Program-made: the position numbers and the translations under genes
Origin: Hypomesus transpacificus
Taxonomy: Eukaryota > Chordata > Actinopteri > Osmeriformes > Osmeridae
Direction: 5' to 3'
DNA length: 64,000 bases
NCBI RefSeq assembly: GCF_021917145.1
Contig: NC_061082.1
Coordinates: 16,657,682-16,721,681 of the forward strand
Shown here: in pieces, positions 23,101 through 64,000 of the stretch
How positions within the stretch are numbered: the first letter of the stretch is position 1
Layout of the letters: every line of letters begins with the position of its first letter
Notes under the pieces: generated by a model
What the model saw: the letters and a program-made list of their open reading frames with translations, nothing else
Databases searched by the model: none
Told to the model about the DNA's origin: nothing

Positions 23101-23581
23101 GGAGGATGAACAGACGAGTGCTGAGACGGCGGTGCCTCTTATTAATATGGGGGAGGCTTGGCTAGGGTTGATGGGTTTATATGGGTCCTGCATTACAGCA
23201 AAGAGAGCCATACAGAACCATGTTCTTTTCATATTCATATGTCTAAAGGAAGCATAGCCAATGTCCTCACCTGGGAAGATGCAGTTGATCCCTATGTTTC
23301 CTTTTGAACAATCCTATTTCTTTATTAAAGAATTCTGCGGTGTGTGTCGCATGTTTCATATGTTCAGTGAAGGTATTGAGGTCTGCTTCTAATCATCTAT
23401 CGTTGCTAACCTGGATGTGCACACGCAAACGAAACGGCAATCTCCCTTCGCGAGGTAGTACACTAAAGGCTATTTATATCGTCATGGGAATTAGGGCATG
23501 CGTTGAGAACTGATTGCACTTCTAACAGTTGAGCGACACATTCATGGCACTGCATGTTTTGTTTGCATATGAAAAGAAGTA

Positions 23582-23598
23582 CGTCCCTGGGTGGACTC

Positions 23599-23649
<51 letters not shown>

Positions 23650-23655
23650 AGAGAC
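23582..23655 (-). tRNA. tRNA-Asn (anticodon GTT)
   Basis: Read on the minus strand the 74 nt fold as a complete cloverleaf. The acceptor stem pairs GTCTCTG with CAGGGAC, allowing one G-T pair. The D arm contains the A box GGCGCAATCGGTTAGCGC. The anticodon arm is TTCGGCTGTTAACCGAA with GTT in the loop, and the T arm carries the B box GGTTCGAGTCC. The sequence is essentially the standard vertebrate tRNA-Asn. No CCA is encoded, as expected for a eukaryotic gene, and a short T run follows within about 10 nt as a Pol III terminator. It stands alone, so it is either a dispersed functional copy or a recent retrocopy; intact stems favour a functional gene. Confidence 0.95.
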
Positions 23656-23777
23656 AGCTGCTCTGCCATTAGAGCTATGCCGTCAAACCTGACACGCTTA
23701 GTCTCTGTCCATGGTGCTGAAAGTGTGGACTCTGCACTGTGTGCTTCATCTATGCTGCATTCCTGTGGCTGTCTGAG

Positions 23778-54680: not shown

Positions 54681-54780
54681 NNNNNNNNNNNNNNNNNNNN
54701 NNNNNNNNNNNNNNNNNNNNNNNNNNNNNNNNNNNNNNNNNNNNNNNNNNNNNNNNNNNNNNNNNNNNNNNNNNNNNNNN
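54681..54780. other. assembly gap (100 N)
   Basis: Exactly 100 N, the conventional size for a gap of unknown length. It interrupts the first visible 5S-U1 unit a few bases before the 3' end of a U1 gene, so an unknown number of array units may be missing. Confidence 0.99.
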
Positions 54781-54938
54781 GAGCGCGTACGCAGTCCCCC
54801 CACTACCAGAAATTATGCAGTCGAGATTCCCGCATTTGGGGAATTCGCAAAGGTCAGCACAGCCGAAGTGCAATGGCCGAGCCTCGCCCTGGGTGAACCT
54901 CCTTCGTGATCAAGGTGTCTCCCCTGCCAGGTAAGTAT
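54781..54938 (-). ncRNA. U1 snRNA, copy 1 (3' end lost in gap)
   Basis: The RNA 5' end is at 54938 (ATACTTACCTGG on the minus strand) and 158 nt are visible; the last few residues of the 3' hairpin fall in the gap. This copy has one extra C (plus strand) in the run near 54796-54801 compared with the other five. The base next to a gap may be an assembly error, so I do not call it broken. Confidence 0.93.
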
Positions 54939-55201
54939 GAGTTGGAAGGGAGACGGGTCCTCTGACCCTCGTGCCAAGGCTGCCGCAGGCACCCGCGGTA
55001 CGCAGACAGGCTGAAAAAGCTGCCAATGGAAGGGGCGGGCTGAAGGGAGCAAGCCCCACCTCCCACTCACACCCATCCCCCCATCCCCCCCATCCCCCCC
55101 ATCCACCCCCGTGGGTCACCCCTCCTCTCCTCTGCCCTGCCCCTTGAAAGTCCACCTCTGATATTAGAATAGTCCAATGACACCAAGAGAAAGCAGCACA
55201 T

Positions 55202-55214
55202 ATACGTTCAATGA

Positions 55215-55254
<40 letters not shown>
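55202..55254. repeat. (GA)n tract of the 5S-U1 unit
   Basis: About 36 bp of pure GA preceding the 5S promoter. The equivalent tracts are at about 56073-56104, 56922-56959, 57776-57815, 58632-58665 and 59482-59511. Their different lengths account for much of the unit-length variation. Confidence 0.9.
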
Positions 55255-55255
<1 letters not shown>

Positions 55256-55347
55256 GATAACAACACTAAGAATGAAGTCAAACTGACCACAAAAAACTAA
55301 GGAGGAATCCCAAGGCAAACTGAGCTACTGGGCAGAGCGCTGTCATG

Positions 55348-55353
55348 TATAAG
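55348..55353 (+). promoter_or_regulatory. 5S upstream TATA-like element
   Basis: TATAAG lies 31 to 26 bases before the first 5S nucleotide, in the context CATGTATAAGTAGCC, with C at -1. This is the TATA-like element seen upstream of many fish 5S genes. The same hexamer precedes each of the other 5S copies at the same distance. Confidence 0.75.
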
Positions 55354-55378
55354 TAGCCTATGACCCACTCCTTCCTTC

Positions 55379-55498
55379 GCTTACGGCCATACCACCCTGA
55401 ACACGCCCGATCTCGTCCGATCTCGGAAGCTAAGCAGGGTCGGGCCTGGTTAGTACTTGGATGGGAGACCGCCTGGGAATACCAGGTGCTGTAAGCTT
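55379..55498 (+). rRNA. 5S rRNA, copy 1
   Basis: A complete 120-nt vertebrate 5S rRNA, component of the large ribosomal subunit, transcribed by Pol III. It starts GCTTACGGCCATACCACCC and ends GGTGCTGTAAGCTT, so the 5' and 3' ends pair as helix I. The internal control region is intact: A box AGCTAAGCAGGGTCGG, then the C box GGATGGGAGACCGCCTGG. A run of T follows directly as terminator. The upstream TATA-like element and a C at -1 are present. The sequence differs from human 5S at a few positions only. All signals for a working gene are present. Confidence 0.98.
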
Positions 55499-55603
55499 TT
55501 TTTCTTTTTTTTCTCTTCTCTCACCAGCAGGGGGAACTGTTTCCCCATCTCGTGCCACACCGCTCCTCAACCGCTTGGCTTGACTGGTCTCAAGTTTGCC
55601 AGA

Positions 55604-55621
55604 TTATTATTTTTCACAAAC
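55604..55621 (-). promoter_or_regulatory. U1 3' box-like element
   Basis: On the minus strand the sequence just after the U1 3' end reads GTTTGTGAAAAATAATA, close to the snRNA 3' box consensus (GTTT, 0-3 bases, AAA-purine-NN-AGA), which directs Integrator-dependent 3' end formation. It begins about 6 nt beyond the mature end and recurs in every complete unit. Confidence 0.6.
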
Positions 55622-55626
55622 ATGTT

Positions 55627-55790
55627 CGGGGGAGAGCGCGTACGCAGTCCCCCACTACCAGAAATTATGCAGTCGAGATTCCCGCATTTGGGGAATTCGC
55701 AAAGGTCAGCACAGCCGAAGTGCAATGGCCGAGCCTCGCCCTGGGTGAACCTCCTTCGTGATCAAGGTGTCTCCCCTGCCAGGTAAGTAT
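55627..55790 (-). ncRNA. U1 snRNA, copy 2
   Basis: A full-length 164-nt U1 small nuclear RNA, which recognises 5' splice sites in the spliceosome. Read on the minus strand it starts ATACTTACCTGGCAGGGGAG, with the splice-site-pairing ACTTACCTG intact. Stem-loop I retains GATCACGAAGG (U1-70K site). Stem-loop II retains ATTGCAC (U1A site). The Sm site is ATAATTTCTGG, where the human sequence has ATAATTTGTGG. The terminal hairpin is GGGGGACTGCGTACGCGCTC and closes in CCCCCG. A 3' box-like element follows. I cannot point to a convincing proximal sequence element upstream. Everything in the RNA itself argues for a working gene. Confidence 0.97.
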
Positions 55791-56068
55791 GAGTTGGAAG
55801 GGAGACGGGTCCTCTGACCCTCGTGCCAAGGCTGCCGCAGGCACCCGCGGTACGCAGACAGGCTGAAAAAGCTGCCAATGGAAGGGGCGGGCTGAAGGGA
55901 GCAAGCCCCACCTCCCACTCACACCCATCCCCCCCATCCCCCCCCATCCCCCCCATCCACCCCCGTGGGTCACCCCTCCTCTCCTCTGCCCTGCCCCTTG
56001 AAAGTCCACCTCTGATATTAGAATAGTCCAATGACACCAAGAGAAAGCAGCACATATACGTTCAATGA

Positions 56069-56105
<37 letters not shown>

Positions 56106-56228
56106 GATAACAACACTAAGAATGAAGTCAAACTGACCACAAAAAACTAAGGAGGAATCCCAAGGCAAACTGAGCTACTGGGCAGAGCGCTGTCATGTAT
56201 AAGTAGCCTATGACCCACTCCTTCCTTC

Positions 56229-56348
56229 GCTTACGGCCATACCACCCTGAACACGCCCGATCTCGTCCGATCTCGGAAGCTAAGCAGGGTCGGGCCTGGT
56301 TAGTACTTGGATGGGAGACCGCCTGGGAATACCAGGTGCTGTAAGCTT
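56229..56348 (+). rRNA. 5S rRNA, copy 2
   Basis: Identical by eye to copy 1, with the same TATA-like element, internal promoter and T-run terminator. The short spacer after it carries one extra C in TTTCCCCCATC. Confidence 0.98.
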
Positions 56349-56477
56349 TTTTTCTTTTTTTTCTCTTCTCTCACCAGCAGGGGGAACTGTTTCCCCCATC
56401 TCGTGCCACACCGCTCCTCAACCGCTTGGCTTGACTGGTCTCAAGTTTGCCAGATTATTATTTTTCACAAACATGTT

Positions 56478-56641
56478 CGGGGGAGAGCGCGTACGCAGTC
56501 CCCCACTACCAGAAATTATGCAGTCGAGATTCCCGCATTTGGGGAATTCGCAAAGGTCAGCACAGCCGAAGTGCAATGGCCGAGCCTCGCCCTGGGTGAA
56601 CCTCCTTCGTGATCAAGGTGTCTCCCCTGCCAGGTAAGTAT
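56478..56641 (-). ncRNA. U1 snRNA, copy 3
   Basis: Full 164 nt, identical by eye to copy 2. Confidence 0.97.
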
Positions 56642-56917
56642 GAGTTGGAAGGGAGACGGGTCCTCTGACCCTCGTGCCAAGGCTGCCGCAGGCACCCGCG
56701 GTACGCAGACAGGCTGAAAAAGCTGCCAATGGAAGGGGCGGGCTGAAGGGAGCAAGCCCCACCTCCCACTCACACCCATCCCCCCATCCCCCCCATCCCC
56801 CCCATCCACCCCCGTGGGTCACCCCTCCTCTCCTCTGCCCTGCCCCTTGAAAGTCCACCTCTGATATTAGAATAGTCCAATGACACCAAGAGAAAGCAGC
56901 ACATATACGTTCAATGA

Positions 56918-56960
<43 letters not shown>

Positions 56961-57083
56961 GATAACAACACTAAGAATGAAGTCAAACTGACCACAAAAA
57001 ACTAAGGAGGAATCCCAAGGCAAACTGAGCTACTGGGCAGAGCGCTGTCATGTATAAGTAGCCTATGACCCACTCCTTCCTTC

Positions 57084-57203
57084 GCTTACGGCCATACCAC
57101 CCTGAACACGCCCGATCTCGTCCGATCTCGGAAGCTAAGCAGGGTCGGGCCTGGTTAGTACTTGGATGGGAGACCGCCTGGGAATACCAGGTGCTGTAAG
57201 CTT
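57084..57203 (+). rRNA. 5S rRNA, copy 3
   Basis: Complete 120 nt, same as copy 1. Its downstream spacer is the first to carry the GGGGGTACTG and GACCGGTC variants. Confidence 0.98.
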
Positions 57204-57331
57204 TTTTTCTTTTTTTTCTCTTCTCTCACCAGCAGGGGGTACTGTTTCCCCATCTCGTGCCACACCGCTCCTCAACCGCTTGGCTTGACCGGTCTCAAGT
57301 TTGCCAGATTATTATTTTTCACAAACATGTT

Positions 57332-57495
57332 CGGGGGAGAGCGCGTACGCAGTCCCCCACTACCAGAAATTATGCAGTCGAGATTCCCGCATTTGGGGAA
57401 TTCGCAAAGGTCAGCACAGCCGAAGTGCAATGGCCGAGCCTCGCCCTGGGTGAACCTCCTTCGTGATCAAGGTGTCTCCCCTGCCAGGTAAGTAT
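57332..57495 (-). ncRNA. U1 snRNA, copy 4
   Basis: Full 164 nt, identical by eye to copy 2. Confidence 0.97.
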
Positions 57496-57771
57496 GAGTT
57501 GGAAGGGAGACGGGTCCTCTGACCCTCGTGCCAAGGCTGCCGCAGGCACCCGCGGTACGCAGACAGGCTGAAAAAGCTGCCAATGGAAGGGGCGGGCTGA
57601 AGGGAGCAAGCCCCACCTCCCACTCACACCCATCCCCCCATCCCCCCCATCCCCCCCATCCACCCCCGTGGGTCACCCCTCCTCTCCTCTGCCCTGCCCC
57701 TTGAAAGTCCACCTCTGATATTAGAATAGTCCAATGACACCAAGAGAAAGCAGCACATATACGTTCAATGA

Positions 57772-57816
<45 letters not shown>

Positions 57817-57939
57817 GATAACAACACTAAGAATGAAGTCAAACTGACCACAAAAAACTAAGGAGGAATCCCAAGGCAAACTGAGCTACTGGGCAGAGCG
57901 CTGTCATGTATAAGTAGCCTATGACCCACTCCTTCCTTC

Positions 57940-58059
57940 GCTTACGGCCATACCACCCTGAACACGCCCGATCTCGTCCGATCTCGGAAGCTAAGCAGGG
58001 TCGGGCCTGGTTAGTACTTGGATGGGAGACCGCCTGGGAATACCAGGTGCTGTAAGCTT
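57940..58059 (+). rRNA. 5S rRNA, copy 4
   Basis: Complete 120 nt, same as copy 1. The spacer after it adds the CAAATTTGCC variant. Confidence 0.98.
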
Positions 58060-58187
58060 TTTTTCTTTTTTTTCTCTTCTCTCACCAGCAGGGGGTACTG
58101 TTTCCCCATCTCGTGCCACACCGCTCCTCAACCGCTTGGCTTGACCGGTCTCAAATTTGCCAGATTATTATTTTTCACAAACATGTT

Positions 58188-58351
58188 CGGGGGAGAGCGC
58201 GTACGCAGTCCCCCACTACCAGAAATTATGCAGTCGAGATTCCCGCATTTGGGGAATTCGCAAAGGTCAGCACAGCCGAAGTGCAATGGCCGAGCCTCGC
58301 CCTGGGTGAACCTCCTTCGTGATCAAGGTGTCTCCCCTGCCAGGTAAGTAT
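58188..58351 (-). ncRNA. U1 snRNA, copy 5
   Basis: Full 164 nt, identical by eye to copy 2. Confidence 0.97.
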
Positions 58352-58627
58352 GAGTTGGAAGGGAGACGGGTCCTCTGACCCTCGTGCCAAGGCTGCCGCA
58401 GGCACCCGCGGTACGCAGACAGGCTGAAAAAGCTGCCAATGGAAGGGGCGGGCTGAAGGGAGCAAGCCCCACCTCCCACTCACACCCATCCCCCCATCCC
58501 CCCCATCCCCCCCATCCACCCCCGTGGGTCACCCCTCCTCTCCTCTGCCCTGCCCCTTGAAAGTCCACCTCTGATATTAGAATAGTCCAATGACACCAAG
58601 AGAAAGCAGCACATATACGTTCAATGA

Positions 58628-58666
<39 letters not shown>

Positions 58667-58789
58667 GATAACAACACTAAGAATGAAGTCAAACTGACCA
58701 CAAAAAACTAAGGAGGAATCCCAAGGCAAACTGAGCTACTGGGCAGAGCGCTGTCATGTATAAGTAGCCTATGACCCACTCCTTCCTTC

Positions 58790-58909
58790 GCTTACGGCCA
58801 TACCACCCTGAACACGCCCGATCTCGTCCGATCTCGGAAGCTAAGCAGGGTCGGGCCTGGTTAGTACTTGGATGGGAGACCGCCTGGGAATACCAGGTGC
58901 TGTAAGCTT
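58790..58909 (+). rRNA. 5S rRNA, copy 5
   Basis: Complete 120 nt, same as copy 1, with the full set of derived spacer variants. Confidence 0.98.
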
Positions 58910-59037
58910 TTTTTCTTTTTTTTCTCTTCTCTCACCAGCAGGGGGTACTGTTTCCCCATCTCGTGCCACACCGCTCCTCAACCGCTTGGCTTGACCGGTC
59001 TCAAATTTGCCAGATTATTATTTTTCACAAACATGTT

Positions 59038-59201
59038 CGGGGGAGAGCGCGTATGCAGTCCCCCACTACCAGAAATTATGCAGTCGAGATTCCCGCATTT
59101 GGGGAATTCGCAAAGGTCAGCACAGCCGAAGTGCAATGGCCGAGCCTCGCCCTGGGTGAACCTCCTTCGTGATCAAGGTGTCTCCCCTGCCAGGTAAGTA
59201 T
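59038..59201 (-). ncRNA. U1 snRNA, copy 6 (loop variant)
   Basis: Full 164 nt. It differs from the other copies by a single change in the 3' terminal hairpin: the plus strand reads GCGTATGC where others read GCGTACGC, so the RNA has CTGCATACGCGC. The change sits at or near the loop of stem-loop IV and should not destroy the stem. Confidence 0.96.
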
Positions 59202-59477
59202 GAGTTGGAAGGGAGACGGGTCCTCTGACCCTCGTGCCAAGGCTGCCGCAGGCACCCGCGGTACGCAGACAGGCTGAAAAAGCTGCCAATGGAAGGGGCG
59301 GGCTGAAGGGAGCAAGCCCCACCTCCCACTCACACCCATCCCCCCATCCCCCCCATCCCCCCCATCCACCCCCGTGGGTCACCCCTCCTCTCCTCTGCCC
59401 TGCCCCTTGAAAGTCCACCTCTGATATTAGAATAGTCCAATGACACCAAGAGAAAGCAGCACATATACGTTCAATGA

Positions 59478-59512
<35 letters not shown>

Positions 59513-59635
59513 GATAACAACACTAAGAATGAAGTCAAACTGACCACAAAAAACTAAGGAGGAATCCCAAGGCAAACTGAGCTACTGGGCAGAGCGCTGT
59601 CATGTATAAGTAGCCTATGACCCACTCCTTCCTTC

Positions 59636-59737
59636 GCTTACGGCCATACCACCCTGAACACGCCCGATCTCGTCCGATCTCGGAAGCTAAGCAGGGTCGG
59701 GCCTGGTTAGTACTTGGATGGGAGACCGCCTGGGAAT
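59636..59737 (+). pseudogene. 5S rRNA, copy 6, truncated at array edge
   Basis: The first 102 nt of 5S are intact, including the upstream TATA-like element and the internal control region through GACCGCCTGGGAAT. The sequence then changes abruptly to unrelated GGCTCACCTCCCCCCC, so the last 18 nt and the T-run terminator are missing. Helix I cannot form. Pol III could still initiate here, but the transcript would lack the proper 3' end. This marks the right boundary of the array. Confidence 0.95.
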
Positions 59738-59915
59738 GGCTCACCTCCCCCCCAAGTCCCTATTGCTCATCCTGGGATCACGATCACTTCCTGGGATCTC
59801 GTGATGGCGCTTTATTACACATTGTAGTTATTATATATGAATACATGAATTAAAACTCTCCCAAATCTTTTTAATTAATTGAAAAACAACCGAGATTAAT
59901 CTTATTTGTCAGACA
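59738..59915. other. unique sequence between array and minisatellite
   Basis: About 180 bp with no gene. It begins abruptly inside the last 5S gene and contains the near-repeat CCTGGGATCACGATC and CCTGGGATCTCGTGA about 25 bp apart. Confidence 0.6.
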
Positions 59916-60538
59916 GGTTGGATTTAGTAAAAAACAACATCCCCTGCACCAAAGAATTATATTTCTACATGAACCATGCAAGGAAAGTACCACAAAATAT
60001 TCTATTAGAATTGACAGAAAGGTTGGATTTAGTAAGAAACAACAGCTCCTGCACCAAAGAATGATATTTCTACATGAACCATGCAAGGAAAGTACCACAA
60101 AATATTCTATTAGAATTGACAGAAAGGTTGGATTTAGTAAGAAACAACAGCTCCTGCACCAAAGAATGATATTTCTACATGAACCATGCAAGGAAAGTAC
60201 CACAAAATATTCTATTAGAATTGACAGAAAGGTTGGATTTAGTAAGAAACAATAGCTCCTGCACCAAAGAATGATATTTCTACATGAACCATGCAAGGAA
60301 AGTACCACAAAATATTCTATTAGAATTGACAGAAAGGTTGGATTTAGTAAGAAACAACAGCTCCTGCACCAAAGAAGGATATTTCTACATGAACCATGCA
60401 AGGAAAGTACCACAAAATATTCTATTAGAATTGACAGAAAGGTTGGATTTAGTAAGAAACAACAGCTCCTGCACCAAAGACTGATATTTCTACATGAACC
60501 ATGCAAGGAAAGTACCACAAAATATTCTATTAGAATTG
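59916..60538. repeat. 105-bp minisatellite, six copies
   Basis: The landmark GGTTGGATTTAGTAA recurs at 59916, 60021, 60126, 60231, 60336 and 60441, exactly 105 bp apart. Copies are nearly identical, with a few single-base differences in the first and in the AAAGAATGATATTT segment. Because 105 is divisible by 3, stop-free frames run through it on both strands (35-residue repeats), but no start context, splice site or protein family supports coding. The last copy ends in TAGAATTGA before unique sequence. Confidence 0.95.
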
Positions 60539-60664
60539 AGTTAATCATGAGGAGCTGAACAAGATGCAGAGAGTTCGGGTCCTGAGGCACGTGGAAATGC
60601 CAGCTACCTTTCAGGCAGCCCCCCTTGGTCAGAACTTGGAACCTCTGGCTATCTTTGTCCAGTA

Positions 60665-60670
60665 TTTATT
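60665..60670 (-). terminator. candidate poly(A) signal of the transposase-like gene
   Basis: AATAAA on the minus strand, about 210 bp after the stop codon at 60880. It is the first canonical hexamer I find downstream in the gene's orientation. Confidence 0.45.
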
Positions 60671-60734
60671 ACAGTATTCAGTAACTTTGATATATAAACT
60701 TTGGTATAAACATATAAAACATATATAAACATAA

Positions 60735-60805
60735 AATATAAACATATTGAACATATCAAACATATCAAACATATCAAACATATCAAACATATCAAACATA
60801 TAAAC
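60735..60805. repeat. 10-bp tandem repeat (ACATATCAAA)n
   Basis: About six units of ACATATCAAA, bordered by related ATAAACATAT variants from 60700 to 60850. It would lie in the 3' UTR of the minus-strand gene. Confidence 0.9.
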
Positions 60806-60879
60806 AAATTGAACATATCAAACATAATAAAATATAAACCATATAAAATATACAAACTAAAACTGAAATCACAAGTGCA

Positions 60880-61333
60880 CTAAGGTGCTTTCCTTTTTTC
60901 TAATACATCATTAACCACCCTTTTGAAATGCTCAAAACTTTCATACACCACACCTTCAAAACCCAAAGTGGTGGCCTTTCTGGTTACAGGGCAGAACGTA
61001 AAGATTTTCTGGTTGCTTCCAGAAACCGTATCTTTTGAGGGTGTGTATCTCTTACGCTGCCCCCCACAATTGGGTACCTGGCACGCCCCGCATGGCCTCA
61101 AGGATCTATGAGGCTTGGCTGGTTTGGACACAGGTACAGGTGGCGGTGCTGCTGGAATAAAGCCAGCACTGCCCTGACTGCAGGATGTCCCCAGCAGCAT
61201 CATGGATGGAGCCCGTGGCTGTGCCGGGACCACCAGCAGTACTGGCGCTGCAGACACTTGAGGCGGGATGTACGTGGCAGGCTTGGGCTGGATGGGCTTG
61301 TTCCCCTGCTCTGCTGGTTTCTTCATTTCTAGC
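60880..61333 (-). CDS. transposase-like gene, last exon
   Basis: It opens after TTATTGCAG and completes a split Arg codon. The 150 residues comprise a Pro-rich linker, then RPCGACQVPNCGGQRKRYTP and FTFCPVTRKATT (possible zinc-binding cysteines), and end VLEKRKAP with a stop at 60880-60882. Confidence 0.85.
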
Positions 61334-64000
61334 CTGCAATAACATGCGGGGAGTGACAGGATAGTGTAAGCATTCAACTATGTAAATTGGTGGTTAAGTT
61401 TACTTGTGAAAGAATGTACTTACCTTCGCTTTGCACCACGCCTTTCCCCAGCCAGGTGATCCAGGTTTTCGTACTGTACCTGAGCTCGAGCTGGAACCGG
61501 TAGGGTTGTTGGCAGATTAGGTGCCTCTGGCATGGGGTCATAAGACAGTACTCTCTTGTGGACTTTCACCTTGGGCACAACTGTCGCCCAGTAGTTGGCC
61601 TTTTTCTCTTCCTTTCTGATGAAGTTGGAGATTGACTTGGCGTTAAGATTTGGCAGGGGAATGGACAGGTTGCTCAGAATGGGATCGTCCCTAACTTGAT
61701 CCACAATCCTTTTGTACTGCGCCTTTATAGCAGTATTCACTTTACTGGGGCTGGATTGGAGACTGGCTGGTGGACGGTTTTTCAGCATCTTTATGACCAG
61801 GTACAAGAGTCGGGTGTCTTCGGTCACCTGTGCTGCCTGAGGGTAACGCATCCAGCTGAACTTGGTCTTCTGAGCTGCCCTGTTCTCAGGTGTGTCTGCC
61901 CCCAGACACCGTCCAAACAGGGTGAAGCCCCATCTGGACTCGTACTTTTTAACAAAGCTCGAAGCGGTCTTGTCGTGGTCTAGAAGGGAACCAGCAGCAG
62001 CTACAATCTTCTGCCTCAGCTTGGCAGGTACTAGGTGCTGGTCACTATTGTCTGCCAGTTCCAGAAGCAGCAAGGCCAGTGCTTCTACTTCCTCCAATCC
62101 TGGCAGATGCATATGACTCTGTTTCATCAGGACATCCTGCAGTGCAGGGCTATCCTCTTCCTCCACCTGCTCTACTTGTGTGAGGCTGACATGTGCCCTA
62201 CTGATGGTGTCCATGTGATCTTCCCCTGAATCTGACCACAAGTCAACACCCTCATCTTCTGACTCCTCTTTGCTCTGTTCAGCCGACTCCTCACGATCAC
62301 CTTCACGAGACTCCTCAACGTCACGAGACTGCTCTTCTTCAACTGCAAATATGTAACGTATAAACAACAAATGTGTCAGGACAGTTAAAACAGTGTTGAC
62401 AGAAAGGAGTGGGTATGGAAACATGAGTAACATCATTGCTTTATAAGTAAGTGCTGTACTGTGTGACTTTACTCTTTTCTGCATAGTAATCCCCGGCAGT
62501 GAAGTCGGTGGACTGGCATGCGGCATATTCCACGCCGAGAAGTTCCTCCTCCTCTGGGCTGTCGTACTTCTCTGGGTAGGGCAGAGGAGCAAAGAAGTTG
62601 GGCTCCAGCACGTGGTCTTTGCCGAAGAGCAGTTCAGCCTGCCGGTTCATGCGCTGGATCTGCCTAGCATCCATACAGGTCGTCTGCCGCCCCTTGCCAC
62701 CAGCAACACGGAGTGATTCCATACGGCTGTTCCACTGCACAGCAAATGTGATAAGATACACCTGAAACACATGACCATGTATATGTGTTACAGAAAATAT
62801 ATACAATTAGGAGGGATGATGTATCAAAGCTATGGAAAACATGTATAATGGATTATAAATAGAACATTTGCTATGAAGGAGTGTTTATATTTCATAATTT
62901 ACTTGGAATGGCAGAATTCCACATCTCTTTGAAGGAACGGCATTGTACAGGTGTGCATGCAACCCCTCCAAAGAGTTACTGCCTCGTCGGCACCTGTACT
63001 TGTTCAACCGAACACCGTTCAGCACCACTTCCTTCACGGACACATAGAGCTGTATACCAGGAGGATCCTGTAGAACACATCACATTGCCAAGCATGTCAA
63101 GATGATTTTACAATGTCTAGATAAAGAAAGAACTTTAGGGATTAACTACAAAGTCATAAACTCACCTGCATACAACTGAGATGCTTGCTTGCGTTTGTCC
63201 AGTGAGCATCGACTGCCTCTGCTGACTTAAAGAGGTGGATTCCATCAATATCAAGGCCAGCTGGTCCCTTGAACTCGGCAATGATGGCCTCCACCACAGA
63301 CGCAGTCTCCTGTAACATTCAATCCCATTTCAATAATTCAAAATCACATTTCAAAAATTGAAGTTTTGTTGTGCTCATTTCTAATGATTGTATATGTATC
63401 TTTCATGATTAGATTTGATCGTAATTCAGTACAGTAAAAAATATTTTAACAAAAGGTGACAGATGCTTCATACTTATGTTACTCATGCATAGATTTCTTT
63501 AAAACATACCTCAACACCTCGGGTGATGCGTCTGACGTAGGCCTTCACCTGGTGAGGCTTGAGGAAATGGATCATTTCCTCTTCAGCATGGTTGGTATAC
63601 AGGTCAGGGTTACCATTCCTGACTGCCTGGACCAGCAGCATCATGTCATCCCGGTTGTAGGCCATCACTGCCCCTGCCAAGGCACTCATGAAGACGCCGT
63701 ACTTTGCATGGCTCTGTTTGATGACGACTGCTTCCCAGCGGTGCAGCCAGTGTCGGACATCCAGTCTGACCATGGTGCCCTCCTGAACCCAGTCATGGAA
63801 CAGGGTCTCAAGAAACGATGACCCACTGTCACTGAAATGATATCAACGTTTGTTGCATCACATGTACAAAAAGGTCAATGAATTTAAATATCAATTTCCT
63901 CATTAGTGTTATCATTATAAATAATTGTTGTTTAATTTACCGACAGCAGTTGTTGTCTGCATAGATTATTTTGGGCGCTGGGGCCTTGGCACGCCGAAAC
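60880..64000 (-). CDS. transposase-like multi-exon gene, 3' part (DUF6729-like?)
   Basis: Seven exons are visible on the minus strand, and all six introns (90-200 bp) have GT-AG ends. Joined, they give 783 residues without a stop; the 5' part lies beyond the window. The N-terminal part shown (residues 1-230) has the order KIIYADNNCC (Asp15), RLDVRHWLHRW (Asp44-x2-His47) and RGSNSLEGLHAHL (Glu209), resembling the D, C/D-x2-H and E elements of RNase H-fold transposases. An acidic linker follows (about 328-370), then a helical region (about 400-600) and a C-terminal Cys cluster C-x2-C-x4-C-x24-C (714-747) that could bind zinc. I recall multi-copy uncharacterised fish proteins with the same wording (IQLY, LGVEY), which I believe carry the label DUF6729. 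No terminal repeats are seen, so it may be a domesticated gene. Function is unknown. Confidence 0.8.
61424..62342 (-). CDS. transposase-like gene, visible exon 6
   Basis: 919 bp between TTTGCAG and AAG|GTAAGT, the longest exon. It begins with an acidic Glu/Ser/Asp-rich stretch, then a predicted helical region (HLPGLEEVEALALLLLELAD onwards) with KYESRWGFTLFGRC and the basic SNFIRKEEKKANYW, and ends GERRGAKR. Confidence 0.86.
62473..62761 (-). CDS. transposase-like gene, visible exon 5
   Basis: 289 bp between TTTCAG and AGA|GTAAAG, ending in phase 1. It contains VYLITFAVQWN, a basic segment (residues GGKGRQTT...DARQIQRMNRQ) and ELLGVEYAACQST. Confidence 0.85.
62903..63067 (-). CDS. transposase-like gene, visible exon 4
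   Basis: 165 bp, phase 0 at both ends, between CTACAG and CAA|GTAAAT. It starts DPPGIQLYVSVKEV and carries RCRRGSNSLEGLHAHL, the proposed catalytic Glu region. Confidence 0.85.
63166..63309 (-). CDS. transposase-like gene, visible exon 3
   Basis: 144 bp, phase 0 at both ends, between TTACAG and CAG|GTGAGT. It encodes 48 residues ending HWTNASKHLSCMQ. Confidence 0.85.
63510..63831 (-). CDS. transposase-like gene, visible exon 2
   Basis: 322 bp between TTTCAG and GAG|GTATGT. It encodes RDSGSSFLETLFHDWVQEG, then the Asp-x2-His segment LDVRHWLHRW, then a helical stretch including KYGVFMSALAGAVMAYNRDD and ending RRITRGVE. Confidence 0.85.
63941..64000 (-). CDS. transposase-like gene, visible exon 1 (partial)
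   Basis: Twenty residues entering from the right edge, ending KIIYADNNCC with the donor CG|GTAAAT (phase 2). The Asp of YAD is the proposed second catalytic acidic residue. Confidence 0.8.

Follow-up and report, generated by a model that had tools for sequence, protein, structure and literature searches.

In the 64,000-bp window analysed here (Hypomesus transpacificus, contig NC_061082.1, called C23 below; C23:16657682–16721681), genes for 5S rRNA and U1 small nuclear RNA (snRNA) form a tandem array, with one gene of each kind per ~850-bp unit, on opposite strands and tail to tail. What the window shows is probably the right-hand part of this array. We hold this reading, together with the homogenisation and the insertions proposed with it, at a probability of roughly 80%. 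In such an array, unequal exchange or gene conversion would spread whole units, so that a ribosomal and a spliceosomal RNA would be homogenised as one block. RNA polymerase III (Pol III) would read 5S and RNA polymerase II (Pol II) would read U1, if U1 is expressed, the two travelling towards each other. Mobile elements that recognise the two genes would also use the array as a landing site, namely a Dada-5S-like transposon in 5S and a long interspersed element (LINE) with an APE-type endonuclease in U1.

The original prediction, made from the letters of the sequence, described tandem units with 5S on the plus strand and U1 on the minus strand, and proposed a check with the Rfam models of both genes. 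We ran the Rfam covariance models (4227 families) over all 64 kb with cmscan and obtained six plus-strand 5S matches (E 5.2e-14 to 2.3e-25) and six minus-strand U1 matches (E 6.9e-36 to 3.3e-41), with U1 matched in every unit and the tail-to-tail arrangement as predicted. Each tandem unit holds both genes, which is what characterises a linked 5S-snRNA tandem array; Rfam places neither U2 nor U5 in the units, which contain 5S and U1 only and are not of the Solea type. Successive 5S starts are spaced by 850, 855, 856, 850 and 846 bp, giving exactly the unit length of 846–856 bp that had been announced. The distance between the tails of the two genes is 129 bp (130 bp in one unit) and not 128 bp; on their promoter sides, adjacent genes are head to head and 434–444 bp apart. 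The internal (GA)n tract already noted in the sequence is present in all six units or part-units of the window (30-40 bp), alongside a C-rich minisatellite that also occurs in every unit.

The claim that every repeat carries complete copies of both genes holds for most of them. Five 5S genes are complete, and the sixth ends at nucleotide (nt) 102 of 119 (59737), with other DNA beyond. Four of the six U1 copies are identical; in the copy at 59038–59201 a single substitution disrupts one pair of stem-loop IV, and the copy at 54781–54938 is cut by a gap of Ns and carries one extra base, also in stem-loop IV. To call U1 intact throughout is therefore too strong. A TATAAG near -30, a T-run after the gene and a complete gene body mark the 5S copies as 5S genes, of what we take to be the somatic-like type. 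When the genome assembly (437 Mb, 376 contigs) was searched, the 24 top-scoring 5S matches (among 47 matches scored, out of 12,567 candidates) all fell in this array, with identical scores; a 5S at C23:16754900 differs from them by one base, a copy on contig C21 by 8 and one on C3 by 11.

Features, extent and homogeneity of the array

The features of the window block, in window coordinates, are as follows.

54681..54780: assembly gap of 100 N, at the left end of the block
54781..54938, minus strand: U1, 158 nt remaining beside the gap, extra base in stem-loop IV (Rfam)
55379..55497, plus strand: complete 5S rRNA gene (Rfam)
55498..55626: tail-to-tail gap of 129 bp, with the T-run terminator of 5S and, on the minus strand after U1, a 3'-box-like sequence
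55627..55790, minus strand: complete U1 snRNA gene (Rfam)
55791..56228: head-to-head spacer, with an inverted CCAAT and a GC box on the U1 side, the C-rich minisatellite, (GA)n, and the TATA-like TATAAG near -30 of 5S
56073..56104, plus strand: example of a (GA)n tract; those of the other units are at 55219, 56922, 57776, 58632 and 59482
56229..56347, plus strand: complete 5S rRNA gene (Rfam)
56478..56641, minus strand: complete U1 snRNA gene (Rfam)
57084..57202, plus strand: complete 5S rRNA gene (Rfam)
57332..57495, minus strand: complete U1 snRNA gene (Rfam)
57940..58058, plus strand: complete 5S rRNA gene (Rfam)
58188..58351, minus strand: complete U1 snRNA gene (Rfam)
58790..58908, plus strand: complete 5S rRNA gene (Rfam)
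59038..59201, minus strand: full-length U1 snRNA gene, one pair-breaking substitution in stem-loop IV (Rfam and comparison)
59636..59737, plus strand: first 102 of the 119 nt of a 5S rRNA gene, with the break at GACCGCCTGGGAAT (Rfam and the published Dada-5S target)
59738..64000: beginning of the first element in a tandem series of four that interrupts the last 5S; judged by its site it is Dada-5S-like, and it extends past the window

Long (CT)n/(GA)n tracts are also abundant in the window outside the array (8327-52383), so such a tract does not set the 5S–U1 unit apart. A tRNA-Asn gene (anticodon gtt) lies on the minus strand at 23581-23656.

Positions 54781 and 59737, given earlier as the bounds of the array, were rejected as its ends. 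On the left is the N gap, with more units beyond it; on the right is the inserted element, and damaged unit pieces carry on past the window. The window contains one end only of a longer array, which is interrupted by mobile elements. A longer block, with the same unit and orientation, is found at C23:16595215–16612098, where 20 U1 and 19 5S copies match the window reference full length at 100%, in 18 complete units plus one partial unit at either end. This block halts mid-unit at a 100-N gap (C23:16612099-16612198), and the window block begins mid-unit at the gap at 54681-54780. The two gaps bound a 100-kb contig, the array blocks lying on its outer sides. Inside that contig no array DNA was found beside either gap in the parts read (the 54.7 kb of the window, 14 kb to the right of the left gap and one further piece), and the genome searches gave no U1 or 5S, among the capped set of candidates scored, at C23:16626001–16648000, a stretch not itself read.

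The 22 complete units compared (18 from the left block, 4 from the window; the alignment also held four partial units, which were excluded from the count) vary at very few places outside simple repeats: three substitutions and one indel of a single base, all of them in the 5S–U1 gap. Otherwise only the C-tract and (GA)n vary, both in length, with (GA)n at 32–42 in complete units. Both altered U1 copies of the window sit in two of the four partial units and hence outside this count. Such near-identity is as expected if whole units evolve in concert and both RNAs are homogenised together, and it fits the joint homogenisation suggested by the original prediction. In a linked unit of this kind, the sequences of a ribosomal and a spliceosomal RNA would both be governed by a single recombination process.

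Unity of the array and standing of its U1

Four points weigh against the account given so far. The first concerns the unity of the array, which is not proved, since the two blocks differ in their C-tract and lie 100 kb apart in the assembly. That they are separate arrays some 100 kb from each other, and not a single array into which a contig has been wrongly placed, is an explanation to which we give a little under even odds. It draws on the C-tract pattern, which differs between every readable left unit and every readable window unit (one left unit misfit the search pattern); it has to contend with the fact that both blocks, in the same orientation, stop mid-unit exactly at an N gap, and that the contig between the gaps is free of array DNA next to either of them. 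The 100-kb contig may be misplaced.

The other points concern U1. Identical units alone cannot show selection on this gene, and its fold and promoter have to be considered against those of other copies in the genome. Other U1 loci comprise six genes in a row on contig C89, single genes on both C7 and C73 and a good one on C25, plus weaker or damaged loci on C25, C197, C19, C3 and C23; U2 genes are found near the U1 loci on C7, C73 and C89. The damaged U1 on C19 (C19:517430-517593) is nearer to the array type than to the C89 type, and its flanks are unrelated.

The array U1 scores 159.8 bits in Rfam, against a cut-off of 69.5. It differs from the C89 U1 at 14 positions and from those of C7 and C73 at 13, and it forms 44 of the 46 Rfam pairs, the same number as the C89 and C7 genes. 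In a control in which 14 random changes were made to the C89 U1, the mean was 38.3 pairs, and 44 was reached in 0.12% of 5000 trials. This control, and here lies the third point, ignores transition bias, and transitions keep G-U pairs. One of the differences from C89 turns a T-A pair into A-T. Neither the 5' end (ATACTTACCTG) nor the U1A loop (ATTGCAC) is altered, and downstream of the gene there is a 3'-box-like sequence. A general decay of the array U1 into a pseudogene was rejected, given the 44 of 46 pairs kept.

The fourth point is the promoter. A block at about -60 is common to the other good U1 loci, and five of these sites score 22.5–24.2 bits in a leave-one-out test; the sites were picked by eye, the pattern fits 6 of the 9 other U1 given, and the scored set is without C89_2 and C89_5, both of which visibly carry the block. 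Upstream of the array U1 the block was not found, the best score between -75 and -40 being -2.5 bits (95% of shuffles score below -0.2). Neither an octamer nor a Staf-like site was matched there; an exact octamer is also lacking at the other U1 loci read, so that its absence says little, and three of them have a Staf-like site.

The missing block suggests that the array U1 could be a passenger, trapped between 5S genes, lacking a functional promoter of its own and kept only through homogenisation of whole units, the working U1 genes being the U2-adjacent and other loci. The similarity to the C7 and C89 genes is confined to the gene and at most some six bases on each side, which points the same way. 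We regard this as possible but rather doubtful, because 44 pairs are formed despite 14 differences, one of them the T-A to A-T swap, because the 5' end and the U1A loop are unaltered and a 3'-box-like sequence is present, and because the U2 genes, which have a block of another kind at about -60, show that the U1-type block is not the sole promoter form. With 13–14 differences between the array-type U1 and the U2-linked loci, expression of the array U1 should be readable directly from RNA data.

Mobile elements within the two genes

The run of intact units in the window ends at a Dada-5S-like insertion. The last 5S stops at nt 102, at GACCGCCTGGGAAT, and this break coincides with the published target of Dada-5S, given in the accessible text of PMC8869645 as ATTCCCAGGCGGTC, the reverse complement of GACCGCCTGGGAAT. 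From 59738, four tandem elements of 8470, 8105, 8470 and about 4720 bp extend to about C23:16747183, read without a 319-bp stretch just beyond the window. Each later element is preceded by GACCGCCTGGGAAT, and the fourth is diverged; the 4263 bp inside the window match copies two and three at 100% identity. The copies contain a 105-bp minisatellite (window 59906-60539). At about C23:16747184, TGGGAAT is found again, followed by ACCAGGTGC of 5S. TGGGAAT is thus present on both outer sides, and the DNA before the right one resembles 5S and is maybe a diverged 5S end; a 7-bp target duplication at the insertion is likely, though not certain. In Pfam, the only domains matched by the reading frames of the element are DUF6729 and a zinc finger of the C2H2 type; a weak match of a repetitive 264-aa frame was taken as chance, no stretch of it passing alone. 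From these sequence traits, the element would be Dada-5S-like by its site and tandem habit, not by its transposase.

Outside the window, two U1 genes of the array are broken at the same base, nt 39/40, at C23:16591794 and C23:16747448, and the same foreign sequence follows in both. The first copy of this LINE (C23:16591794-16595196, 3.4 kb) is 5'-truncated and has a 16-bp duplication of U1 nt 40–55; the second runs from C23:16747448 to about 16754407 (about 7 kb), with U1 resuming on the far side after a loss of 2–7 nt. In two aligned pieces the copies are 98.8% and 96.6% alike. Both encode a reverse transcriptase with a zinc-binding end (RVT_1 2.4e-37, zf-RVT 5.5e-9), and an APE-type endonuclease is found in a separate frame of the longer copy (Exo_endo_phos 5.3e-7). 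Different 5' ends with one 3' junction indicate two separate insertions at one nick.

The exact LINE-U1 junction string occurs twice in the genome, only at these two sites on C23; matches with two mismatches were set aside as evidence, since a reversed control gave as many. The exact 3' end of the LINE occurs four times, two of them (on C33 and C128) outside U1 and beside a repeat common to both, and all four are followed by GGT. Neither of the two 3' ends with one mismatch lies in U1, and six with two mismatches were not examined. At the top of the best 120 of 1622 protein matches stand metagenome proteins at 94% and 61% and, as the best named relatives, Dallia pectoralis frames at 58–73%; of the older named matches listed, the nearest, at 34%, is to a pol-like protein of zebrafish. 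The U1 target string was absent from the viral contigs scanned. No U1-targeting LINE was found in the literature searched, most subscription papers and Repbase being outside that search, and the element seems to be an undescribed retrotransposon.

The LINE may be specific for U1, and we moderately favour a family of non-long-terminal-repeat (non-LTR) retrotransposons that is specialised, perhaps loosely, on U1 and nicks it at nt 39/40. The 5S-U1 array would then be a reservoir shared by this family and a 5S-specific DNA transposon, pooling the parasites of both genes. That the LINE lacks such specificity, the two same-base insertions being a coincidence or copies of one event, would accord with the two exact 3' ends (of four) and both one-mismatch ends that lie outside U1, but it is rather unlikely, as the insertions differ in length (3.4 kb and about 7 kb) and in their 5' junction, as expected of separate events, and GGT follows all four exact ends. 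Either way, one locus holds mobile elements of two classes inside the two genes of one unit. A LINE targeting U1, if confirmed, would supply a kind of element so far missing among those that live in small-RNA genes and offer a site-specific endonuclease for study.

LINE reading frames of about 30–33% identity were also seen near divergent 5S copies at C21:5.99-6.01 Mb, C158:0.79 Mb and C135:0.13 Mb; we suspect that they are Mutsu-like, and perhaps 5S-targeting.

Comparison with known systems

The linkage of 5S to snRNA genes is known in principle, as the original prediction had stated, and the comparisons below follow the accessible text of each report. Linkage of 5S and U1 has been described in a crustacean (Pelliccia 2001), and an association of the two in fishes of the genus Astyanax (Silva 2015); the present array shares the linkage, here tail to tail and in units where Rfam finds no further gene. 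In Solea senegalensis, 5S is accompanied by U1, U2 and U5 (Manchado 2006), and in a probe from the coral Acropora pruinosa by U1 and U2, with the genes described as head to tail (PMC8167085). These units, like ours, have snRNA genes within the 5S repeat, whereas U1 is the only one here. The 5S-U2 array of Crassostrea oysters contains a (CT)n.(GA)n tract (Cross and Rebordinos 2005), comparable to the GA tract of our unit, although the partner there is U2. Linked 5S and U1 genes, the presence of several snRNAs in a 5S unit and the occurrence of a GA tract beside 5S and U2 are thus already in print, and the array adds another case.

The inserted elements can be compared in the same way. Like Dada-5S (PMC8869645), the element at the right edge breaks 5S at the published target and forms tandem copies, here with TGGGAAT at both outer ends; the likeness is one of site and tandem habit, and the right outer end is preceded by 5S-resembling DNA. 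Dada-U1 (PMC3706591) inserts inside U1, as the LINE does, but it is a DNA transposon with a 6-8-bp duplication at CTGCGAAT, whereas the LINE enters at nt 39/40. Keno and Utopia (PMC4640811) are non-LTR elements that target U2; like the LINE they join an snRNA gene at a constant 3' junction, although the target here is U1. Keno also shares with our LINE an endonuclease of the APE type.

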